Source: Halocatena salina (GTDB taxonomy: Archaea; Halobacteriota; Halobacteria; Halobacteriales; Haloarculaceae). Taken from it: a stretch of 64,000 nt of DNA. Under the pieces are notes generated by a model that had not been told where the DNA came from, did not search any database, and was given only the letters and a program-made list of their open reading frames with translations. Made by a program: the position numbers and the translations under genes. Where the stretch lies: positions 1,798,001 through 1,862,000 of the forward strand of contig NZ_CP096019.1 in assembly GCF_023115355.1 (NCBI RefSeq), read 5' to 3'. Positions 4,769 to 9,480 of the stretch are shown here, in pieces. Positions within the stretch are counted from its first letter, which is position 1. The number at the start of each line of letters is the position of its first letter.

Positions 4769-5920
4769 CTACACTGACAGCGGGTCGGACACTGTCTCGG
4801 TTTCGTGTTCGGCGGCGTGCTTTCGGAGCCACTTCCGTCCGCGGTCGGTCGCTCGGGGGCCGAAGTCGTTGTTTTCTACCTGAAACCGTCCGTTGCCCCG
4901 GCTCTGCTGGATGATCGACTCGCGACCGTGGCGTTCGAGCAGCGGTACCGCCTCACACCAACTGTCTCGGACCCACGAGTTGGCCCTCGGTTCCCCTCGG
5001 AGCACGACGGCGGCCGAATTCGTCGTCTCGAACACGGTGTGGTGAACGCGCAGATACTTCCCTGCCAACGGTCCGGTGTGATCATCGAGGTTTTGGCTGA
5101 GCCGATGCATGTCGAAGGCGTGTCTGACAGCGTGCGGACCGACCACATTGAATCGGGCTTCGTATCCGTTTTCCCGGTGTCCGAACGCAGCCACCGCATG
5201 CCGGTTGTAATCGAAGTAGTTCCATTCGATCAGATGGATACCGTTGCGGAGATCGAGTCCGTAGCCGAGGGTGTCCATCTGGTTGTGATGAATCGCGTTG
5301 TGGTGGACGTGTGAGCCGGTCGGTGTCTCTCCGGTTCCAAAACTGACCGCAGCGTGTGTCCAACCTGCCAGCTCGCAGTGGTCGATTTCGATATCGTCGC
5401 CGGTGAATTCGAACGCCCGCGCATAGTACGATGACGCCGGCCGAGACTTCGACCGCGGATCGAAATACTCCGTTTCGGGACCGACTACCCGCAGTCCCGT
5501 CACTCTGATTCCCGACTCAGGGGATCGAAAGACAGTCGGTGCGGTAGCTGGCACCGTGATCTGTGCCCCCGGACCATCGAGTCCGCGATCGCTGGCGATC
5601 GTGACGTTCGCTGCGATCGAAAGTGGCATCGACACCGAATCGTCCAAACGGAGATCGGTTCCGTTCGGTAGCCAGACTGTCGCACCCGGCGTCGAAAGTG
5701 CCCCACGAAGGTCTGATACCGTCTCGACCACGTGGGTCGCGTCCGCTCGTCTGACCCGCCCGCCCCGAGCGATAAAGCCCAGTGGCTCCGACTGTTTGAC
5801 GCCCGCGATCGAAAGACATCCACTGGAGAACACCCCCCCCGTGATCCCCGCTGTCAACGCGAGCACTTCCCGTCGGGTCTGGCTCACGGTCGACGACCCT
5901 GCAGGCTCTCCGTCACCCAT
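4769..5920 (-). CDS. Tat-exported right-handed beta-helix lipoprotein
   Basis: Protein of 383 aa with a twin-arginine signal (R16-R17-E-V-L) ending in a lipobox SSGC with Cys35 as the probable lipidated residue. The mature part shows short repeating strands with N, H and D turns (for example HHNAIHHNQMD and DIEIDHCELAGW), as in the pectate lyase-like parallel beta-helix (NosD/PbH1) fold. It is probably anchored on the outer face of the membrane and may bind or cleave polysaccharide. No lyase active-site residues can be claimed. A TATA-like box 21-30 bases upstream supports the start. Confidence 0.75.
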   Translation of the reverse strand: MGDGEPAGSSTVSQTRREVLALTAGITGGVFSSGCLSIAGVKQSEPLGFIARGGRVRRADATHVVETVSDLRGALSTPGATVWLPNGTDLRLDDSVSMPLSIAANVTIASDRGLDGPGAQITVPATAPTVFRSPESGIRVTGLRVVGPETEYFDPRSKSRPASSYYARAFEFTGDDIEIDHCELAGWTHAAVSFGTGETPTGSHVHHNAIHHNQMDTLGYGLDLRNGIHLIEWNYFDYNRHAVAAFGHRENGYEARFNVVGPHAVRHAFDMHRLSQNLDDHTGPLAGKYLRVHHTVFETTNSAAVVLRGEPRANSWVRDSWCEAVPLLERHGRESIIQQSRGNGRFQVENNDFGPRATDRGRKWLRKHAAEHETETVSDPLSV

Positions 5921-6051: not shown

Positions 6052-8007
6052 TTATATCTCGGTCACGCGTTGGTACTCCTGATCGACGGCAGCCGCATCT
6101 TCGGGGAGCAGCGCGACGACGAGGAACTCGGCGTAGTCGGCAACGTACTCGATGAGCGCAGCGATGCGATCGGAGTCGATCGCCTCGAGGGAATCCAGTA
6201 GCATGATCGGGACCGATTCGTGCACTTCGTGGACGAGATAGCCCGCGAGGGCAAACACCAGTCCTGTGACCTCCCGTTCACTTTCCGAGAGGTGATCGAC
6301 GGTGTCCTCGTAAGCAGTTCCCGATTCAGTGCTACGAATGACGTGGAGATCGAACGTCCGCTCGGAGACGGTTCGCCGTCCCTTGGTGACTTCGTGTTCG
6401 GTTCGTTCGATCCAGATGCGTTCGAGATTGGCGTATTCGAGCAGATCCAACACGGTTTCCATGTGGTCGTTGAACTGTTCGATCGCCTGTTTCTCGATCT
6501 GCTGGATGCGCGTTCGGAGATCGGCGAGATTCTCTTGTACCGTCTCCTGTCGCTGTTTGAGTTCGTCGCGCTGTTCGACCCGCGCTTCGATGTCGTCGAT
6601 CTCGGACTCGACGGATTCGCGCTGGCTCTGTATCCGGCCAAGCTCGAACTCGAGTTGGTTCGCTTCCTTATGAAGATCGAGAATGTCGCTGTAATCCTCC
6701 TCTTGAAGGTCCTCGACGTTGTCTTCGAGCCGTTCGATCTCCGATTCCAGTTCATCACGCTCCGATTGCAGCTCTTCGATCCTCGTCTCGCGGCGTTCGA
6801 GTTCCGTGTCGATCTGTTCGAGCCGTCGTTCGAGCCGATCGCGTTCGCGCTGGTGTTCTTCGAGCGTGTTCTTCTCCTCCTGTAGTTGGCTGATCTCGTT
6901 TCGGAGCGAGTTTCGCTCTTCGAACCGTTCCGACCGGAACTGCTGGAGCCGATCGAGCGTCTCTTCGATCTCCGATTTCGGGACCTCGCTCCCACACGTC
7001 CAACAGACGACGCTCTCGGTGTCTGCAACCAGCTGATCGGTGAGTGCTTCCGCCTCGGTGTCGCTTTCACCTCGAAGCGAGTCGACGATCTCGCGGCTCG
7101 TCCCGTCGAGCATTTCCTCGTTGAACTGGATGATCGTCTGTAGTTCGTTGACTGTGGTATCGATCGATCGTAGACGATCGCGCAGCCGTCCGATCTCCGT
7201 CTCGATCTCCTCGATATCCCCGACGGGCGTTCCTGGAAGCTCTTCGAGTTCCGTTTGAAGCTCCGATCGCTCTTTTTGCAGGGCTTGGAGGCTTTCGCGC
7301 TGGGTGTCTAGTTCGTACCGGGTGTCGTCTAAGGATGCTCGCGCGTCGTGAAGCTCGTCAAGCGCCGCCTCCAGCTCGCGTTTGTCGGCCCGACTGTCCT
7401 CGACGTCTGCGTCGGCTTCTGCTAGTTCCTCCTCTTTCGCTTCGAGGGCGTCCTGTTTCTCCGAGATCTGTTGGGTGAGCGATGTCCGGCGGTCTTCCAG
7501 CTCGACGAGCTGGTCCGCGAGCGCGTCGAGATCCGATAGCTCGGTTTCGATCTTGCGCTGCTCGGCTTCGAGTTGCTTGATTTCAGCTTGAATCGCGTCC
7601 GTATCCACAGGCCGCATGATAAGTTCTCGAAGATCCTCACTCCGAGCGACTGCTTGTCTGGCCTCGTTCGACTCCAACAGAAACGCGAACAGATCTGCCA
7701 GCTCTGTGTCATCGAGGTACGGATCCCCACCGGTGATGATCGTTCCGTTATGGCGCTCTAACGTCCGGTTGTACGTTTCATCACCGATCGTCATCTCGAC
7801 TGCTCCCTCGGTCGCGTCACCCTTCAACGAGACGCGATCGCTTCCGAAGGCAGCCATGATTGCCTGCAACAACGATGTACGATTAGTTGCGTTTCGACCG
7901 GCGAGTGCAGTGACTCCTGGTGTGAACTCGACGGTCGTGCTGTCGATACCGCCGATGTTCTCTACGGAGAGCTGCATCTTTTCCGTTCCAATCTGCGATG
8001 CTCCCAT
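6052..8007 (-). CDS. sph3: Archaea-specific SMC-related protein (Sph3-like)
   Basis: Rad50/SMC-like protein of 651 aa. N-terminal ATPase head half, a very long coiled coil (about residues 145-560) interrupted by a zinc-hook-type CWTC near residue 336, then the C-terminal head with HLSESEREVTG as signature and PIMLLDSLEAID as Walker B. Walker A reads GRNATNRTSLL: the invariant lysine is arginine, and the Walker B acidic catalytic residue is serine. I recall this Walker A form as typical of the haloarchaeal subfamily, so it is probably not a broken gene. In Haloferax volcanii the homologue sph3, next to rdfA, is needed for rod shape. Here rdfA lies directly upstream on the same strand (99-base gap), suggesting an operon. 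Cytoplasmic; ATP hydrolysis is uncertain. Confidence 0.85.
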   Translation of the reverse strand: MGASQIGTEKMQLSVENIGGIDSTTVEFTPGVTALAGRNATNRTSLLQAIMAAFGSDRVSLKGDATEGAVEMTIGDETYNRTLERHNGTIITGGDPYLDDTELADLFAFLLESNEARQAVARSEDLRELIMRPVDTDAIQAEIKQLEAEQRKIETELSDLDALADQLVELEDRRTSLTQQISEKQDALEAKEEELAEADADVEDSRADKRELEAALDELHDARASLDDTRYELDTQRESLQALQKERSELQTELEELPGTPVGDIEEIETEIGRLRDRLRSIDTTVNELQTIIQFNEEMLDGTSREIVDSLRGESDTEAEALTDQLVADTESVVCWTCGSEVPKSEIEETLDRLQQFRSERFEERNSLRNEISQLQEEKNTLEEHQRERDRLERRLEQIDTELERRETRIEELQSERDELESEIERLEDNVEDLQEEDYSDILDLHKEANQLEFELGRIQSQRESVESEIDDIEARVEQRDELKQRQETVQENLADLRTRIQQIEKQAIEQFNDHMETVLDLLEYANLERIWIERTEHEVTKGRRTVSERTFDLHVIRSTESGTAYEDTVDHLSESEREVTGLVFALAGYLVHEVHESVPIMLLDSLEAIDSDRIAALIEYVADYAEFLVVALLPEDAAAVDQEYQRVTEI

Positions 8008-8106
8008 ATATGTATTCCTCAGAGAGCCACCTATTTAACTCCTCAGACTCGTAGATGACGAGAACGTCTGTCTCGGGGTTACAGATGTAATTTCGTAACG
8101 GCTAGC

Positions 8107-8790
8107 TCAATCGAGCGATTCGACGGTATTATCATCCGTTGATACACAGTCACAGTGCCCCCGTTCGAGGAGTTCTACAACACTGTATCTGGTTCCACAG
8201 TCCTGACAGGTTACAGTCACGTCAACGAGAACGTCGAAGTCGCCGATCTTGAGACGGTCGGTGTTTTCGAGCGTCGAGAGGTTGTCCTCGGTGACACGGA
8301 GCGTTCGGTGAGAGAGGCGTTGGATCGCCTGTGTAACGCTTTCGATCCGGTCGTTGTCGTCAGTCGCCGGTGCTGAGTGGCGCGCACCCCGGTATTTCGT
8401 GAGATACGTGTGGACTGCCTGATGGGAGACGAAATCTCGTTCGAGCTTATCGATCGCGACCCCATCGCGTTTCAGGTCGTTCCGGGCCTGTGTGCGGACA
8501 CCACTGCTGACGTCATCACCCGTGAGCAACCGATACACGTTATCAACCTCGCCATCGATCGGTTGACGACCAGCCCGCGTCATCGCTACTTCGAGGAGGT
8601 GTTTGTTCAACCAGTCTGCGAGCTCGCGGAGGCTGTATCGCTCCTCGCTGTTGCCCGTCCATCGTGCCTCCATCGTCTGTCCGAGACCGTCCAAGTCGTA
8701 CTCGACCAGAACGCGACCGACTTTACTGGTGGTATGTGACTGGTCTGATTCTTTATCATCAGACTCGGTCCCATCCCCTTGATCGTTCAT
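8107..8790 (-). CDS. rdfA: Rod-determining factor RdfA
   Basis: Protein of 227 aa resembling RdfA, a factor required for the rod form of Haloferax volcanii. An acidic tail of about 25 residues is followed by the conserved segment KVGRVLVEYDLDGLG, a helical middle (RYSLRELADWLN) and a C-terminal zinc-binding motif CQDC with a later CDC. It precedes the SMC-like gene on the same strand, the arrangement known from Haloferax, so both probably act together in cell-shape control. I choose the ATG at 8790 over the GTG at 8799, because a TATA-like TTATTCGTA lies 24-34 bases upstream of the ATG. Confidence 0.8.
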   Translation of the reverse strand: MNDQGDGTESDDKESDQSHTTSKVGRVLVEYDLDGLGQTMEARWTGNSEERYSLRELADWLNKHLLEVAMTRAGRQPIDGEVDNVYRLLTGDDVSSGVRTQARNDLKRDGVAIDKLERDFVSHQAVHTYLTKYRGARHSAPATDDNDRIESVTQAIQRLSHRTLRVTEDNLSTLENTDRLKIGDFDVLVDVTVTCQDCGTRYSVVELLERGHCDCVSTDDNTVESLD

Positions 8791-8799
8791 TCTAGTCAC

Positions 8800-9480
8800 C
8801 GTAACGTCCTCAATACGAATAAGTGTTCATTTCTTAGCGTCACTGTTCGGCCCGATATTCGACTACACGGGGGTGTATCTCTCCGACGTCCCGTTTCTCG
8901 GCCGTGGGTGTGAATACCACTTCCCGCTTGCCGTATCTGTCATATGCTGTGAGTGAGTGCGGGTCGCTACCACGTCACGCTTGAGTGCTTTCTTCTCGCC
9001 CGAACGATACCTCGTGTGCACTAGGATCATATCTACTCTTATATGTTTCTGCTATACCATAGAGGGAATAAACATAAAATATTGAATTCGAACTCCGTTC
9101 GTATTGGATGTATTACTAATAGCGGTAACTCCCACCGATAGTCCCTTTCAGCTTCGCTCGTCTCGACGCGACCGAGCCGGCATTCCCTGCTCGTTGTCCA
9201 AAACTATTTACCACGTTTATACGATTGATTACTGTATATATGTAGGCGACGTACCGATCGATACAGAAGCATCTCGAACGGCGTACCACCAGTCCGTCGG
9301 TATCGGCCACCGCTGGAACGCCTCGTCTCAGGTGATTCGAGACACGACTGATGGGACGTTCAACGTGCGCTACGTTCGTCACGAGTTTGGCTCGATTTGT
9401 CGTTCTCGGTTCGGTATATCAGCATACGATTCATCCGGATGGATCGCCCGACTTTTACCGGTTTCGAGCAATGATCACAC
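8800..9480. other. 680-base region between rdfA and the DUF5783 gene
   Basis: Contains the rdfA promoter (about 8814-8824), the possible gene fragment at 8840-9040, an AT-rich patch around 9040-9110 and, at 9452-9460, a TATA-like ACTTTTACC upstream of the gene at 9481. A plus-strand frame at 9104-9484 overlaps the next start and shows no protein-like features. Confidence 0.4.
8840..9040 (-). pseudogene. Possible decayed C-terminal fragment with in-frame stop
   Basis: The minus strand has 44 codons ending at the stop 8840-8842 and reading like the end of a protein (REVVFTPTAEKRDVGEIHPRV). There is no start codon: the frame is closed upstream by a TGA at 8975-8977, and beyond it the same frame continues with plausible coding sequence (YDPSAHEVSFGREE). 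A single CGA to TGA change would explain the interruption. I do not recognise the family. The base composition differs from the AT-rich sequence around 9040-9110. Confidence 0.3.

Follow-up and report, generated by a model that had tools for sequence, protein, structure and literature searches.

Does the pair of adjoining rdfA-like and SMC-like genes carried by Halocatena salina specify a switch between rods and disks? In Haloferax volcanii the loss of either rdfA or sph3 abolishes rods (PMC10869688, PMC11276520), and a preliminary description of the DNA, which cited this role of the homologues correctly, proposed that the organism likewise possesses a programme for switching shape, in which the two genes play the same role. 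We analysed the pair within a stretch of 64,000 nucleotides, hereafter the window, which lies on the chromosome (C1, 1798001-1862000) of a 4.0-Mb genome. The gene identities, their adjacency and the Haloferax role all held, but the rod/disk switch in this host found no support. The reading that we favour, with moderate confidence, is that the window holds the chromosomal core RdfA-Sph module of a Halocatena-type haloarchaeon that forms hyphae and lacks CetZ, that its Sph is of a scaffold type, and that the module is not a rod switch.

The rdfA and asrp genes and the spread of their families

The rdfA gene (8107..8799, minus strand) has a GTG start and encodes 230 aa, and an in-frame ATG at 8790, which would give 227 aa and at which the preliminary description had ended its interval, fits a leaderless transcript. 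Downstream of rdfA on the same strand, after an intergenic gap of 99 bp, lies asrp (6052..8007, minus strand), which encodes an Sph-type SMC-related protein of 651 aa. The window RdfA scored 262.8 bits against PF21811 (curated cut-off 27) and the window Sph scored 711.7 bits against NF045487, the archaea-specific SMC-related protein or ASRP family (curated cut-off 300), and both scores are far beyond chance. The two genes thus adjoin on one strand as had been described, and the Haloferax-like order of rdfA followed by sph was seen, yet this order is the commonest arrangement in the family; at several other haloarchaeal loci rdfA and sph are convergent or divergent. Predicted structures were built on shallow alignments (11 and 6 rows), and the RdfA model (pLDDT 76.5) comprises a helical core, a long helix and a C-terminal zinc-ribbon whose four cysteines, C198, C201, C216 and C218, are at least 90% conserved among 50 sequences. 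Foldseek returned no significant match to the RdfA fold (best E about 1; VIA Z at most 4), nothing matched it in the PDB, and a search of phages and IMG/VR gave no match to RdfA. The dN/dS values, 0.03-0.08 for rdfA and 0.05-0.12 for asrp, indicate strong purifying selection. The distance matrices of RdfA and ASRP correlated with an r of 0.66-0.75, of which species history is a part, while the permutation maximum was 0.41, and this is in line with a working pair. RdfA and Sph would be partners acting as a single unit.

Membership in these families is by itself a poor guide to function. RdfA was found in 340 of 392 haloarchaeal genomes, often in several copies, and 133 plasmid records also carry it. 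The genome of H. volcanii encodes four paralogues of RdfA (PMC10869688) and four paralogous Sph proteins, and deletion of its sph2 gives mostly rods while sph1 and sph4 deletions are similar to the wild type (PMC11276520). Since the family is near-universal and multicopy and the shape phenotypes of its paralogues are opposite or absent, the presence of RdfA-Sph says little, and with four H. volcanii Sph proteins of differing phenotypes the same role as sph3 needs to be shown and not assumed. With a multicopy family of opposite paralogue phenotypes, and with an orthology to HVO_2174/2175 that is doubtful, a shape-switching programme is left unsupported. The name rod-determining factor has nevertheless spread by homology to very many paralogues, though the paralogue deletions of one species act oppositely. 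It may be added that PMC13286277 states that Sph3 promotes plate shape, which contradicts the primary results of PMC10869688 and PMC11276520, in which deletion of sph3 abolishes rods.

The ATPase motifs of the window Sph and the maintenance of the genome

The window Sph resembles other ASRPs (Sph, coalescin ClsN) in its zinc hook and in the N- and C-terminal ATPase half-motifs that flank a coiled coil. These are, all on the minus strand within asrp, a Walker A motif GRNATNRTS (7873..7899), a Rad50-like zinc hook CWTCG at residues 335-339 (6991..7005), whose CxxC sits midway along the coiled coil, a signature motif LSESER (6274..6291) and a Walker B motif LLDSLEAID (6175..6201). It departs from ASRPs in that Walker A is degenerate, with Lys replaced by Arg, and that in Walker B the catalytic Glu is replaced by Ser, so that it is without both of the motifs of active SMC/Rad50-type proteins (Walker A GKS/T, Walker B DE), which the SMC and Rad50 of the host genome retain. 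Nearly all of the main-clade haloarchaeal ASRPs examined have GRNATNRTS and LLDS(L/V)EAID or a close variant and retain CWTCG. Zinc hooks and Walker motifs in ASRPs are described in passages of PMC9389158, and these passages make no mention of Walker degeneracy. With Rad50 the window Sph shares the CxxC zinc hook and coiled coil, but it is shorter than canonical Rad50, its ATPase motifs are degenerate and it has no Mre11-like neighbour. The window Sph is thus apparently a hydrolysis-defective ATPase; the degeneracy of Walker A and Walker B predicts that it hydrolyses little ATP, if any. Most likely it would work, together with its partner RdfA, as a scaffold or bridge dimerised through the zinc hook and not as a motor driven by ATP, and, if the four H. 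volcanii paralogues are a guide, RdfA-Sph may contribute to the maintenance of genome copies and to cell morphology. In Sulfolobus, ClsN compartmentalises chromosomes; we know of no such compartmentalisation in haloarchaea.

A tentative alternative, which we consider somewhat unlikely, is that the main job of the pair is the maintenance of a polyploid genome through intermolecular gene conversion, recombination and chromosome bridging, and that effects on shape are indirect. Efficient intermolecular gene conversion in H. volcanii needs all four Sph proteins and not SMC, and sph2 and sph4 could not be deleted jointly (PMC11276520). Purification of Cas1 brings down Sph2 along with repair proteins (PMC9051519). 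The Rad50-like zinc hook and the many plasmid-borne pairs would also suit such a job. The degenerate ATPase motifs, however, speak against a Rad50-type repair motor, and deletion of sph3 and of sph2 alters shape specifically and in opposite directions (PMC11276520).

Other RdfA-ASRP genes differ in these motifs. A second pair in the same genome (G000:C3:172028-174631; L134, L011), on a 415-kb replicon, is 35% identical to the window pair, has Walker A GENASNKSS and Walker B VDAVEMLD, and falls into a clade shared with pairs of other haloarchaeal families. An RdfA gene of about 280 aa without an adjoining ASRP (G000:C1:133436-134011; L113) is shared with YIM A00010 (L143). Deep-branching pairs of the Sph1 type, with little or no intergenic gap (L111, L112, L130, L131, L147-L150), retain the Walker A Lys (GKSS) and LSEGE, and in their Walker B D[GQR] replaces DE.

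The pair in a hypha-forming genus

Identity of the window RdfA to its counterparts is 97% in Halocatena pleomorpha, 94% in YIM A00010 and 83-84% in H. marina, Actinarchaeum halophilum YIM 93972 and YIM A00013, and outside these five relatives it was at most 50% in the same scan. The host is a member of the Halocatena/Actinarchaeum hypha-and-spore clade. A study of H. pleomorpha and the YIM strains reports hyphae and spores as differentiated forms, the loss of CetZ and the archaellum, and no observation of rods (PMC10067837). In agreement with the loss of CetZ, each of the six genus genomes has exactly two tubulin-family genes, as compared to 6-8 in three Haloferax-like genomes, and those of the host are FtsZ1 and FtsZ2, CetZ being absent. 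The archaellum marker PF04659 is represented by one diverged ORF per genus genome as against three in Haloferax, and as this ORF remains, the marker alone gives no proof of archaellum loss. The window ASRP, the only one that the seven genus genomes have in common, is full-length in each of them (76-100% identity); in H. pleomorpha the sole other match is a weak SMC-type one.

A third gene belongs to the cassette of the genus. It lies directly 3' of asrp on the same strand (4769..5920, minus strand) in 6/6 genus genomes compared, with 53-84% identity, and encodes a predicted Tat lipoprotein of 383 aa that may be parallel beta-helix-like. No Pfam family matched it, and the gene was not found at three other haloarchaeal rdfA-asrp loci checked. 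Its model is of low confidence, and the Foldseek matches, which are weak, are nearly all parallel beta-helix polysaccharide lyases and tailspikes.

The two genes of the pair have separate promoters. The rdfA promoter element AAATGAACACTTATTCRTATTGAG (8809..8832, minus strand) is conserved and the asrp promoter element GAGTCTGAGGAGTTAAATAG (8031..8050, minus strand) is identical in six genus genomes, and each is unique in the window. A TATA-like box lies about 28-30 nt from the ATG in both (about 28 nt for asrp), a spacing that is consistent with leaderless transcripts. Between rdfA and asrp there is in addition a dyad, GTTACG-N10-TGTAAC (8078..8099, minus strand), also conserved in six genus genomes. 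When 36 independent locus groups were scanned over the 150 nt on the 5' side of asrp, 12 of them had TWACA-N10-TGTWA, one mismatch being allowed, whereas other spacers of 5-15 gave 0-1 groups and shuffled sequences gave 0.25 on average and never more than 3. Exact GTTACR-N10-YGTAAC occurs at 9 sites in the host genome (control 0) and at 3-10 in its relatives (controls 0-1); these sites are mostly intergenic, and several of them, not all, lie beside IclR-family and sugar-metabolism genes. Of 40 locus groups, 14 have IclR genes no more than about 6 kb from rdfA. The dyad of the window is thus probably an IclR-type operator, although a putative one, and because no IclR gene is present within the 64-kb window the regulator would act in trans. 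We also considered whether the dyad might be a parS-like site at which Sph is loaded, but copies that are mostly intergenic genome-wide, several of them beside IclR and sugar genes, make an operator likelier. The third conserved gene beside sph, the dyad linked to sph and the degenerate ATPase are the new details of what is otherwise an ordinary member of a known and widespread family.

It may be asked whether the module was recruited to the hypha and spore programme of the clade in place of CetZ-dependent shape control, the Tat lipoprotein acting at the envelope. No other Sph is shared by the hypha-forming genus as a whole, this one is under strong purifying selection, CetZ is missing, the third gene is conserved throughout the genus, and the locus has its own promoters and operator. 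Related pairs, however, are equally widespread in haloarchaea that form no hyphae, and the main text of PMC10067837 names neither RdfA nor SMC/Sph. We consider such a recruitment possible and rather improbable, and any role of the pair in hyphal growth would be an extrapolation from this pattern of conservation. A bolder version, which we put forward as a speculation that is unlikely to be right as a whole, would have RdfA-Sph combine with the envelope lipoprotein, which is specific to the genus, into a rewired module of morphogenesis, with Sph as a non-hydrolysing scaffold for filamentous growth under IclR-type, that is carbon-source, control. A lineage that lacks CetZ, forms hyphae and has one shared pair in each genome offers a natural setting in which to ask if RdfA-Sph depends on CetZ.

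Relation to the RdfA-Sph pairs of Haloferax

The genomes that we take as Haloferax are those of group g60, so assigned from plasmid relatives in H. mediterranei and H. gibbonsii with 79-81% DNA identity, and they contain four classes of RdfA-ASRP pairs. The identities of the classes are inferred from ddfA/HalOD1, the CsmR motif and the gene order near the presumed HVO_B0113, and not from H. volcanii sequence. In class ii a HalOD1 ORF (ddfA) follows asrp directly, and a perfect CsmR site, TATCA(N4)TGATA (motif from PMC13286277), is located at -69 from the called rdfA start in 6/6 loci; from the HalOD1 ORF and the CsmR site class ii is therefore the HVO_2174-2176 type. Class i has the gene order enolase, luciferase-family, IclR, FAH, SDR, rdfA and sph. 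HVO_B0113 is distantly homologous to Rv0132c, an F420-dependent enzyme, and when it is taken as the luciferase-family gene of class i, counting genes from it would make the class i sph HVO_B0118, that is Sph2.

The window pair is closer to class i, with 51% identity for RdfA and 58% for ASRP, than to class ii, with 42-44% for RdfA and 47-49% for ASRP, and class ii ranks only 22 and 24 of 31 in similarity to the window pair. By this measure the window pair, which belongs to the central part of the family, is nearest to the Sph2 type among the Haloferax classes. It has the same gene order as class i (putatively HVO_B0117/B0118) and, as in class i, a dyad between the two genes, which in class i is TTACA-N10-TGT(A/C)A; unlike the window pair, which is chromosomal and has no IclR neighbour, class i is found on secondary replicons in a sugar-catabolism cluster with IclR genes. 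With the rdfA-sph3-ddfA locus of H. volcanii (HVO_2174-2176) the window shares both families, their order and the single strand. It differs from this type in its identities of 43% and 48%, in having neither ddfA nor the CsmR operator, in a host without CetZ and in the extra lipoprotein gene. No ddfA (HalOD1) was found beside the window pair, where the downstream gene is that of the 383-aa lipoprotein, and a perfect CsmR site was present neither in the window nor in its relatives nor in any non-class-ii locus scanned, the best match to the motif at the window having 2 mismatches at -244. In one Haloferax-like genome an rdfA of the Sph3 type has an in-frame TAG (G379:C2:682945-683529; L105) and may be a pseudogene or reflect a sequencing error.

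That the pair is nevertheless truly orthologous to HVO_2174/2175 and helps this host to grow as rods or in another elongated form is, in our judgement, quite doubtful. Besides the shared families, order and strand and the loss of rods in the Haloferax mutants, a hypha is an elongated form, and in the concatenated RdfA and ASRP data forcing Halocatena together with class ii costs 0.99 log units and is not rejected (p-AU 0.46). In the tree of ASRP only, Halocatena is placed away from class ii and the forced grouping costs 25.8 log units (AU p 0.065), which disfavours orthology, although the backbone of these phylogenies is weakly supported, the class ii branch is long and the AU tests disagree between the data sets. 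Low similarity to the Haloferax pair, which the preliminary description had named as a result that would go against its proposal, is largely what the identities of about 43% for RdfA and about 48% for Sph amount to, and the comparison of neighbours for which it had called turned up neither the ddfA nor the CsmR site of the HVO_2174/2175 type. Together with the absence of CetZ from a clade of hyphae and spores in which rods are unseen (PMC10067837), this weakens the proposed shape switch further, and a Haloferax-like rod/disk switch is unsupported and in part contradicted. The module that we favour would be wired unlike the HVO_2174/2175 rod switch, lacking ddfA, a CsmR site and CetZ and having separate promoters and an IclR-type operator instead. 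The locus also shows how paralogues can be separated, namely by the neighbouring gene, the CsmR site, the paralogue class and the presence of CetZ, and the ATPase degeneracy and the operator linked to sph are specific leads on a poorly understood SMC family. Finally, an SMC-based defence system of the Lamassu or Wadjet kind is very improbable, as the LmuB/JetC matches of Sph are weak, the best of them falling on the coiled coil and a few weaker ones on the N-terminal AAA motif with low scores, RdfA and the lipoprotein have no PADLOC match so that no system partner genes stand beside the SMC gene, and the pair is ubiquitous, chromosomal and vertically conserved in the genus.

Other occurrences of the dyad

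In H. marina three GTTACA-N10-TGTAAC dyads lie about 12 kb apart (G283:C1:1888257, 1900006 and 1912559) in a sugar-catabolism region with dihydrodipicolinate-synthase-like, LmbE-like and isomerase-like ORFs. The dyad is also present near a small conserved ORF with INADDIDVWIAALR in three genus genomes (L208, L225 and L223, the last having IDADDIDAWINALH), and at L208 and L225 its sites are G000:C1:101004 and G378:C1:756426. MoxR/vWA modules have been linked to multicellularity (PMC10067837), and in L208 the ORF next after the small one encodes a MoxR-like ATPase.
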